A DNA stretch of 35,170 bases from Verrucomicrobiaceae bacterium (GTDB lineage Bacteria > Verrucomicrobiota > Verrucomicrobiia > Verrucomicrobiales > Akkermansiaceae). Shown here one piece after another: positions 32,925 through 35,170 of the stretch (position 1 is the stretch's first letter; each line of letters begins with the position of its first letter). The translations under genes and the position numbers were made by a program. The notes beneath the pieces are model-generated. The model had not been told where the DNA came from. It worked only from the letters and a program-made list of their open reading frames with translations, and searched no databases. The DNA is taken from assembly GCA_027487355.1 (NCBI GenBank), contig JAIYDT010000192.1:1-35170 (forward strand), in the 5' to 3' direction.

Positions 32925-33974
32925 ATGCCGACCATCCATGATTATGTCCGCAGCGCCTTCACCGAAGGCGCGACCGATCTGATCCTCTCCGAAGGCCACC
33001 CACCACGGGTCCGCATCAACGGCGAGATCATCCCTTTCGAAAACCATCCGCTCGATCATGAGGAAATGGTCTCGTTCTGGCAGGACGTCGGCGCGGACCC
33101 CGCCACCGATCTCGAAAAAGACATCGGCTGGAGCTCGGGCGATGGCTCACGGCTTCGCGTCAACCTCTTCAAGTCCCTCGGCGGCCTCTGCGCGGTGCTG
33201 CGCCCGATCAAGCGCTCGATCCCCGATTTCCAGGAGCTCGGCCTGCCTTCTCCCCTGCTGATGTCCTGGCTCGCCCGGCGCAGCGGACTCATCATCGTCA
33301 GCGGACCCACCGGTTGCGGAAAGTCCACCTCGGTCGCCAGTTGCCTCGATTGGGTCAACCACCACTACCGCCGTCATGTCGTGACCATCGAGGATCCGGT
33401 GGAATATCTCTTCGAGGACGACCTCAGCCACTTCTCGCAGCGCGAGGTGGGCCAGGATACACCCTCCTTCTCGATCGCCCTCCGCGCCGCCCTGCGCCAG
33501 AGCCCGGACGTGATCTTCCTCGGTGAAATCCGCGATGAGGACAGCGCCCTGATCGCTCTCCGCGCGGCGGAAACCGGTCACCTCGTCCTTGCCACCCTCC
33601 ACAGCCCCGGCGTCGCCGAGTCCCTCGAACGGCTCGGCAACCTTTACTCGCCGAACCATCGCGACGCCTCCCTCCAGCTCCTTTCGAACCACCTCATCGG
33701 CATCCTTTCCCAACGCCTCCTGCCCTCCGCCGAAGGAGGCCTGCACCTCGTGGTCGAACACCTCGAAAACGAAGCCGCCGTCCGAGGCTGGATCCGCGAG
33801 CGCCAGCAGGCCGAAATCCGCGACATGCTCCACCGCTCCGATTCCCCCGGCAACCTCTCCTTCCTCAAGTCCCTCTGCGACGCCGTCTTCGCCGGAAAGA
33901 TCCACCCCGCCACCGCCCGAGCCGCCGCGCCGAATCCGCTCGATCTCGATCGCGCTCTGCGTGGCATCGCTTAA
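32925..33974 (+). CDS. PilT-type secretion/twitching ATPase 1
   Basis: A hexameric ATPase of the PilT/VirB11 superfamily that powers pilus retraction. The N-terminal PAS-like domain begins with ATDLILSEGHPPRVRINGEI, and the ATPase domain has the Walker A GPTGCGKST at 127-135. Also present are the Asp box TIEDPVEYLF at 154-163, the Walker B PDVIFLGEIRDEDS at 194-207 and the His box AAETGHLVLATLHS at 214-227. The family normally has RDLETI after Walker B; this protein has RDEDSA. Length of 349 is typical. A second pilT-type gene follows after an unusual repeat-filled spacer. It is a PilT-like paralogue; assignment to PilT or PilU is not possible from sequence alone. Confidence 0.88.
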   Translation: MPTIHDYVRSAFTEGATDLILSEGHPPRVRINGEIIPFENHPLDHEEMVSFWQDVGADPATDLEKDIGWSSGDGSRLRVNLFKSLGGLCAVLRPIKRSIPDFQELGLPSPLLMSWLARRSGLIIVSGPTGCGKSTSVASCLDWVNHHYRRHVVTIEDPVEYLFEDDLSHFSQREVGQDTPSFSIALRAALRQSPDVIFLGEIRDEDSALIALRAAETGHLVLATLHSPGVAESLERLGNLYSPNHRDASLQLLSNHLIGILSQRLLPSAEGGLHLVVEHLENEAAVRGWIRERQQAEIRDMLHRSDSPGNLSFLKSLCDAVFAGKIHPATARAAAPNPLDLDRALRGIA

Positions 33975-34191
33975 GTTCCAAGGGCCAGGTTCCAAGTGCC
34001 AAAGAAGAGAAAGCACGAAGCACTAAATTCGAAATTCGAAATTCGAAATGAAGAATCGGCCTCGCCATATCACTTCGACGTTCAATGTTGGACGTTCGAT
34101 GTTCGATGTTCTCCTACCTGAAAACTGAACACTGAAACCTAGCAAACTTTCTTCCACTTCTCACTCTCCACTAATCACTTCTCACTTTCTA
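33975..34191. repeat. Mosaic of different 7-bp tandem repeats
   Basis: The spacer between the two pilT-type genes is built mostly from short tandem runs with 7-bp period but different units. These are GTTCCAAGGGCCAG/GTTCCAAGTGCCAA (14-bp unit, 33975-34002), AAGCACG/AAGCACT (34011-34024), AAATTCG x3 (34025-34045), TTCGACG/TTCAATG/TTGGACG/TTCGATG/TTCGATG (34074-34108), CTGAAAA/CTGAACA/CTGAAAC (34118-34138), and a CTTCCAC/TTCTCAC family x6 (34151-34192). Its length, 217 bp, equals 31 x 7. It is not coding, is far less GC-rich than its flanks, and has no spacer-repeat order like CRISPR. See the finding. Confidence 0.9.
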
Positions 34192-34193
34192 CC

Positions 34194-35170
34194 ATGTCCC
34201 AACTCCGCGACATCGACGACTACCTCCGCATGGCCGTGGAAAACGGCGGCTCCGACCTGCACCTCAGCGTCGATGCCCCGCCCGCTGCCCGCATCAATGG
34301 CACCCTCATCCCATTGGAGGATTTCACCCTCACGCCGGATGCCACCCGGACATTGATCTTCTCGACCCTGTCAGAAACCCAGCGCTCGCGACTTGAGACC
34401 GAATGGGAGCTCGACTACGCGCTTGAGATCAGCGGGCTCGGCCGCTTCCGTGCCAATGTCCACTACGCCCGCAACCACCTCGAAGCCGCCTTCCGCCACA
34501 TCCCGCCGGAGGTCCCGGAGCTTTCCCAACTCGGCCACTCGCCCACCATCGAGCAGTTCTGCCAGCACCGTCGCGGCCTGGTCCTCGTCACCGGGATCAC
34601 CGGTTCCGGGAAAACCACCACCCTCGCTGCCATGGTGAAACGCATCGCCGAGACCCGCTCCGGCGTCGTCATCACCATCGAGGACCCCGTCGAGTTCGTC
34701 CTCCCGCATCGCTCCTGCCTCATCAAGCAGCGCGAGATCGGCAAGGACACCAAGTCCTTCTCCATGGCCCTCCGCCAGGCCCTGCGACAGGACCCGGACG
34801 TCATTGTCGTCTCGGAGCTGCGCGACCTGGAAACCATCCGCATCGCCCTCACAGCCGCCGAAACGGGTCATCTCGTGCTCGCCACGCTCCACACCGTCGA
34901 TGCCCCGCAGACCATCGACCGTCTCGTCGATGTCTTCCCGCCCGACCAGCAGCAGCAGATCCTCGCCCAGCTTTCCAATGTCCTCGAAGGCATCGTCTGC
35001 CAGCGCCTGCTGCCAAAGGCGGATGGCAGCGGTCGCATCCTCGCCACCGAGGTCATGAGCGTCAACTATGGGCTCCGTACCTGCATCCGCGATCGCAAGG
35101 TCGAGCAACTCGTCGGCCTCATGGAGATCGGCAGCAAGGAAGGCATGCACACCATCGACGACTCCCTCGA
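34194..35170 (+). CDS. PilT-type ATPase 2 (truncated by window end)
   Basis: The first 325 residues of a second PilT-type ATPase; the frame is open to the last base. The N-terminal domain has GGSDLHLSVDAPPAARING, like PilT. The Walker A is GITGSGKTT at 134-142, the Asp box TIEDPVEFV at 161-169, the Walker B PDVIVVSELRDLETI at 201-215 and the His box AAETGHLVLATLHTVDA at 221-237. Before the Walker B glutamate, Ser replaces the usual Gly, but the catalytic Glu is kept. It is closer to classical PilT than the first copy because it keeps RDLETI. The ATG at 34194 follows the heptad repeats directly, with no Shine-Dalgarno. Confidence 0.93.
   Translation, partial: MSQLRDIDDYLRMAVENGGSDLHLSVDAPPAARINGTLIPLEDFTLTPDATRTLIFSTLSETQRSRLETEWELDYALEISGLGRFRANVHYARNHLEAAFRHIPPEVPELSQLGHSPTIEQFCQHRRGLVLVTGITGSGKTTTLAAMVKRIAETRSGVVITIEDPVEFVLPHRSCLIKQREIGKDTKSFSMALRQALRQDPDVIVVSELRDLETIRIALTAAETGHLVLATLHTVDAPQTIDRLVDVFPPDQQQQILAQLSNVLEGIVCQRLLPKADGSGRILATEVMSVNYGLRTCIRDRKVEQLVGLMEIGSKEGMHTIDDSL

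Follow-up and report, generated by a model that had tools for sequence, protein, structure and literature searches.

The question raised by this locus is how a short intergenic spacer can keep a period of 7 bp while the repeated word changes from block to block. The window, i.e. the whole stretch of DNA analysed here, comprises 35,170 bp and is contig C559 of the genome referred to as G000 (4.97 Mb in 617 contigs, 89% complete, 0.4% contamination). Near its end two PilT/PilU-family ATPase genes follow one another, and between the stop codon of the first, which ends at 33974, and the ATG of the second at 34194 lies a heptad-array spacer of 219 bp (33975-34193). Its G+C content was 43.6%, compared with 61.8% for the whole window. 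Lag-7 identity over 33975-34194 was 0.531, while 5000 dinucleotide-preserving shuffles gave 0.257 ± 0.031 (z = 8.9) and none of them reached the observed value. Identity was also raised at lag 14 (0.461, z = 6.5) and lag 21 (0.427, z = 5.3) and was near background at lag 28 (0.286, z = 0.9), thus the shared heptad register in the spacer is genuine and is lost gradually within about three to four units. Among all 200-bp stretches of the window, the top lag-7 scores all fell at this spacer.

An earlier note on this DNA had described the spacer as many words in one period, and TRF recovered the same words: AAATTCG (block 2 of the table), TTCGATG-like (block 3), CTGAAAA-like (34118-34137) and CTTCTCA-like units (34151-34187) were all present. 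The excess over shuffled sequence bore out the periodicity as such. The statement that almost the whole gap is 7-periodic needs one correction, as about 20 bp of the centre (34050-34073) and the linkers lacked the period.

Table. Features of the spacer and of its two flanking genes (positions in the window).
Feature	Position	Strand	Remarks
Upstream PilT/PilU-family ATPase gene	32925..33974	+	TIGR01420, E 2.2e-94, 316.5 bits, slightly below the curated cut-off of 319.1
Block 1, GTTCCAAG/GGCCAAG-like, i.e. TTCCAAG/GGCCAAG-like units	33975..34003 (periodic 33975-34001)	+	In G196, missing from G217
Purine-rich linker GAAGAGAAAG and half-block GCACGAAGCACT	34004..34024	+	Recurring at other loci
Block 2, AAATTCG x3.6	34025..34049	+	
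Non-periodic centre GAAGAATCGGCCTCGCCATATCAC	34050..34073	.	Conserved in G196 and G217
Block 3, TTCGATG-like, i.e. AACRTYS family on the - strand	34074..34111	-	Variants GTCG, ATTG, GTCC, ATCG, ATCG
Block 4, CTGAAAA/CTGAACA/CTGAAAC units, then conserved tag CTAGCAAAC	34118..34147	+	16+7n bp cassette, recurs in several congeners
Block 5, CACTTCT-like units reaching the ATG	34155..34193	+	G196: GAATCTT-like units instead, register kept
Downstream PilT/PilU-family ATPase gene, truncated by contig end	34194..35168	+	TIGR01420, E 2.7e-121, above cut-off

Predicted folding of the spacer did not differ from that of shuffles (z = 0.05 as RNA, -0.04 as DNA) and an Rfam search of 33800-34400 matched no family up to E 1, and a structured RNA or hairpin at this site was therefore ruled out. 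A search of plasmids and cultured phages with the spacer gave no match.

The components of the spacer were found dispersed through the genome, in agreement with the repeat family suggested in the earlier note. BLAST of the spacer against G000 gave 53 matches; AATTCGAAATTCGAAATTCG, allowing at most 2 mismatches, matched 36 times and its reversed control 0 times. The linker of 34004-34024 was found again at L004 and, on the opposite strand, at L002. In 393 kb of G000, consisting largely of contigs picked for holding a match, 29 tracts with period 7 were detected, compared with 0-6 at other periods that are not multiples of 7; lags 3, 6, 12 and 18 gave 5-6 tracts each, as coding sequence would lead one to expect, and the remaining non-multiples gave 0-2. 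Perfect arrays in the sample showed the same preference (26 at period 7, 0-7 at other non-multiple periods). In contigs drawn irrespective of matches (142 kb) tracts occurred in L224 only, so the density in the whole genome is below that of the chosen contigs. The sample contained 28 heptad words, e.g. AACTTGG, AATGACT, ACCGATC, AACATCG, AAATTCG, AATCTCC, ACCCCTG, ATCCCCG and AACAACC. Selection of words as stop-free was rejected, as 24 of the 28 are stop-free on at least one strand, without enrichment over the 87% of all heptamers.

Two very close congeners, G196 (PilT proteins 99.7% identical to those of G000) and G217, were compared at the same site. The three genomes have a common gap backbone, and the gap is 219 bp long in G000, 224 bp in G196 and 193 bp in G217, so that the variation among strains anticipated from the sequence does exist. 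Block 2 has 3 consecutive whole AAATTCG units in G000, 2 (one mutated) in G196 and 4 in G217, and a TTCGATG pair of G000 reads TTCAATG in both congeners. The last block consists of CACTTCT units in G000 and G217 and of GAATCTT units in G196, with the register kept and conserved sequence alongside. In G262, the next closest congener examined, the gap is 45 bp without heptads, and in more than 10 other congeners it is 5-12 bp, again without heptads. A conserved spacer between the two pilT genes was rejected on these lengths, which likewise give no support to a spacer that the genes need.

Other orthologous loci, with flanks about 89-99% identical, changed in the same ways. Copy number differed between near-identical genomes at L063:14519, L074:11030, L076:9343 and L078:9527. 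Concerted substitutions were seen at L062:9776 (TTCGAGGx3 vs TTCGATGx3), L061:4515 (CTTCAAT vs CCTCAAT) and L069:14154 (TGACTAA vs TGACGAA). Besides the last pilT block, whole words were replaced at L061:2806, L072:7917, L066:11740 and L075:19638, where an AACATCG-type array of G000 corresponds to an AAGTTCC-type array in G196, both flanked by conserved GGAGGA and GGGAGAA. Two arrays, that of polA and one at L064:2970, were nearly unchanged between close genomes. Abundance varied strongly among congeners, with arrays dense in G000 and G196, 0-1 per 400 kb in G262 and 1-2 per 400 kb in G198. In G173, from another family, arrays were dense again (15 lag-7 tracts in 340 kb), with mostly different words such as AGTTAGA, AATTAGG and CTCAGCT. 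As a separate observation, an AAGTTCC/AAGGTTC array (L062:10979-11114) lies soon after a serine-tRNA-like 3' end, and past the tRNA G196 and G217 carry unrelated sequence, which resembles an insertion site.

The earlier note had held that slippage would extend one unit and could not change the word while keeping the period. The way in which words change along arrays does not support this. Among 22 block pairs in total, directly adjacent different words (12 pairs) differed on average at 1.75 of 7 positions in register, compared with 5.3 in the other six phases. Random block pairs, used as the null, differed at 5.19 of 7 and blocks across linkers of at least 22 bp at 5.0, i.e. linker-separated blocks are unrelated in word. 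A 230-bp array at L166:1394 of a Verrucomicrobiaceae genome carries AAATTCG, AGATCCG, AAATCCG and GATCCCC in a single register. In AACRTYS-like arrays of the lineage of G000, identical neighbouring units numbered 79, compared with 69 in within-array shuffles (p 0.008). These small in-register steps, together with the surplus of identical neighbours, indicate that the letters drift within a period that slippage passes on, and orthologous arrays with the identical substitution across units are what mutation plus slippage is expected to produce. An array of G196 (L307, G196:C219, about 1790-1900) runs through AAATCCG, AAGTCCA, AGGTCCA, AGGTCCG, ATGTCCG and back, with mainly three columns varying.

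It is on balance probable that the spacer is a fast-turnover composite of heptanucleotide satellites, shaped by slippage and mutation within blocks and spread by block copying, with period 7 by descent and most likely no function here. Inside each block, point mutation would combine with replication slippage, which copies whole units, and a substituted unit could take over the block while the 7-bp register is inherited, as the adjacent words and concerted substitutions support. Blocks bounded by purine-rich linkers would be gained, lost and replaced as units, as was seen at orthologous sites; they were probably copied from other heptad blocks of the genome, by template switching or ectopic gene conversion between arrays and linkers. 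This copying is inferred from the replacements. Blocks do land and persist in tolerant DNA, both in the spacers of gene strings and in those loops of conserved proteins that are flexible and in which 21 bp, being 7 codons, keep the frame. New arrays would be copied from old ones, which would make period 7 common by descent, perhaps aided by a slippage optimum near 7 of the kind put forward for heptameric repeats of bacteria. The pilT-site array is then most likely a tolerated insertion in an operon spacer, without a role.

Period 7 had been thought to exclude a conserved reading frame; it is compatible with one because 3x7 = 21, and arrays are indeed read in frame in uvrA, nspC (carboxynorspermidine decarboxylase) and polA (DNA polymerase I) of G000. 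A double-length UvrA of 1911 aa (L072:6827-12562, - strand, G000:C590) carries heptad-encoded peptides at six loop sites. The array-encoded peptides of this genome are the expected 7-residue repeats, e.g. SSFDVGRSMFNVQ and KSPISNPQSPI. Across 30 aligned UvrA sequences, the peptides of congeners differ at shared loop sites (e.g. SDQSSVISERG, NPQSSIVNPSS and NLKSQISN), and the loops are mostly shorter in order-level outgroups.

Block 3 of the spacer belongs to a word family, AACRTYS, which is shared with other phyla. The 19-mer TTCGATGTTCAATGTTSGA, with one mismatch allowed, was present in 20 of the 195 genomes of the phylum, taken to be Verrucomicrobiota, and its reversed pattern in 0. In named genomes it was found, among the matches listed, in Desulfobacterota, Verrucomicrobiota, Lentisphaerae, Kiritimatiellales, Planctomycetes and Nitrospinota, a few of these matches resembling chance matches in coding DNA. 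AACRTYS three times running occurred 10-245 times per genome in each of eight genomes across phyla, and 0 times in controls. The variable columns were in every group mainly 4 (A/G), 6 (C/T) and 7 (G/C), and arrays mostly had about 5 units. Loci from the named-genome scan are biased by the query. With the query sites set aside, the loci of five phylum groups held 57 lag-7 tracts; lag 8 followed with 12, and no other lag that is not a multiple of 7 exceeded 9. The 12 lag-8 tracts all came from Desulfobacterota. The whole word vocabulary did not appear common to the phyla, AACATCG alone spanning most groups at the sampled loci.

In Desulfobacterota, AACRTYS arrays form convergent pairs around a centre of tens of bases, with predicted hairpins of about -30 to -64 kcal/mol at most loci with both arms. 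Identical neighbours were depleted there (24 vs 34, p 0.003, in a test omitting arrays that contain the query) and the unit order was fixed. Convergent pairs, hairpins and fixed order together make AACRTYS in this phylum look like a defined element. Desulfobacteraceae Eth-SRB1 (G274, L106) holds about 245 AACRTYS pattern matches in 3.3 Mb, e.g. C1:206777-206899; match starts in its convergent pairs are often 79, 86 or 93 bp apart, in steps of 7, and a recurring centre contains GAGCGAAGCGA. These pairs look like a defined element family.

Bacterial heptanucleotide repeats are an already known kind of sequence. The heptameric SSR GGGNATC of Xanthomonas and Nostoc uses a single degenerate unit in each genome (Rehm et al. 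2015, PMC4692102). It resembles the arrays of G000 in its period of 7, in being dispersed, mostly intergenic and variable between close relatives and in its common convergent pairs, and the array L061:2801-2915 even carries a GGGNATC-type word (GGGGATC = GATCCCC). G000 differs in having about 28 words that form composite arrays and replace one another between orthologous sites, and in carrying arrays in frame within several housekeeping genes. An earlier survey cited in that paper found heptamers over-represented in many bacteria; the paper also remarks that the size of the polymerase contact could make slippage at 7 more likely (PMC4692102). The TAACTGA direct repeats of marine Beggiatoaceae, whose single-base variants are hardly repeated and for which a translation-leader role was suggested (MacGregor 2015, PMC4679880), are likewise intergenic heptamers, often just before starts and patchy over phyla, whereas G000 has abundant variants and quite different words. 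In Geobacter metallireducens, GGGACCG elements have one unit and four copies per element (PMC2700814). As in G000, the heptanucleotides stand in tandem and occupy tens of sites, some between genes and others within them.

Cyanobacterial STRR heptanucleotides comprise several families in one genome, and so do the arrays of G000. For Calothrix, PMC4692102 reports three tandem heptanucleotides. The arrays of G000 agree with heptameric SSRs and STRRs in having 7-bp tandem units without enrichment of other periods and many dispersed copies of variable length between relatives, and depart from them in lacking one unit per array and genome, a typical though not defining trait. Rickettsia palindromic elements are short repeats, though longer palindromes, found in frame in conserved protein genes. 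The arrays share with them the in-frame insertion in conserved genes (uvrA, nspC, polA), but are generally non-palindromic and variable in word and length. REP/BIME elements with RAYT transposases are dispersed extragenic repeats, sometimes in inverted pairs; in the spacer there was no conserved palindrome, and folding was at shuffle level. Nor did the window site resemble a MITE, with no matching inverted arms and no duplication in G000, G196 and G217, whereas such arms are seen in AACRTYS pairs at other loci.

The literature searched, mostly open-access papers, contained no description of heptad arrays composed of several words. New features here are that arrays are composites of many words, that one word can take the place of another between near-identical genomes, that arrays have invaded housekeeping genes in frame and that the AACRTYS family extends across phyla. 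The over-representation of heptamers in many bacteria, which is without an accepted reason, becomes a testable problem through these genomes. In G000 and its relatives the period is inherited and the word is not, and they offer a natural experiment on the origin of 7, with polymerase slippage, descent from one element and an unknown enzyme as the candidates.

Slippage alone does not explain the exclusivity of period 7, the recurrence of AACRTYS with identical variable columns in several phyla, or the neighbour depletion and fixed unit order in Desulfobacterota. A cassette consisting of CTGAAMA(n) and CTAGCAAAC, of 23 or 30 bp, recurs beyond block 4 at L382, L388, L404 and L409 (G198), and suggests that defined elements bounded by ends are involved, not free satellites. 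A bolder reading, which we consider rather unlikely, invokes an undescribed genome process that works in steps of 7 nucleotides. In certain lineages of several phyla it would create arrays with any word, and overwrite them again, both in spacers and in the loops of proteins; it would be a private source of in-frame insertions into proteins, and AACRTYS blocks would be its most conserved and perhaps original element.

As the explanation of the spacer itself, a dedicated generator (a templating polymerase, a reverse transcriptase or similar, or lineage-specific repair), in which the machine fixes the period and leaves the word free, is unlikely. It would account for the sporadic blooms in unrelated lineages with the same period and different words (G173 and the five phylum groups), for the near absence of arrays from the near relatives G262 and G198 and for the replacement of entire blocks between close genomes. 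But no candidate enzyme was found, and the small word changes between adjacent blocks are likewise expected of ordinary slippage. Y1/RAYT transposases are unlikely drivers: Y1 genes were present in 22 of the 22 genomes searched and their number was unrelated to arrays.

A transposase-moved MITE-like or REP-like element, with paired AACRTYS blocks as its inverted ends and the other words as derived or captured sequence, is distinctly unlikely. The convergent pairs with strong hairpins and fixed unit order in Desulfobacterota, and the matches in each of the eight genomes, are consistent with such a family. At the window site, though, the left arm is AAATTCG/TTCCAAG rather than AACRTYS and no hairpin beyond shuffles is predicted; most words of G000 are unpaired, no target duplication was seen in G000, G196 and G217 and no partner transposase was identified, the Y1 counts being no guide to the arrays.

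Start-adjacent blocks could also serve as unstructured, G-poor translation leaders, e.g. bound by ribosomal protein S1, although this is quite improbable as the general explanation. Arrays often reach the start codon, and start-proximal arrays had 39% purine on the coding strand compared with 51.5% near stops (p 0.001, the loci not being independent). At several G198 and G211 loci an ATG follows the end of the CTGAAMA..CTAGCAAAC cassette at a distance of a few to about 20 bases. Given the pyrimidine-rich start-proximal arrays and the cassette before starts, a leader role is possible for some arrays. However, words at the same site differ between near-identical genomes, most congeners do without them and many arrays are distant from starts or within genes. 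At first, in a small set, arrays seemed to avoid divergent gene pairs (0/19), an impression that a larger set of loci did not bear out, 10 of 67 arrays lying in divergent gaps compared with 51 of 225 gaps (p 0.23); gap types are approximate here, being based on gene calls from a simple hexamer-based caller.

The protein-binding array suggested in the earlier note, i.e. sites for a sequence-specific protein at 7-bp spacing, is highly improbable: every phylum shows the same constraint on the AACRTYS columns and arrays mostly have about 5 units, but one genome has about 28 words, these are replaced at orthologous sites even between near-identical genomes, and only one word family is widely shared.

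AACRTYS arrays were further seen in IMG/VR, in 37 stretches (L420-L456) of uncultivated, putatively viral contigs, and several arrays can lie within one such contig, e.g. IMGVR_UViG_3300012347_000612.
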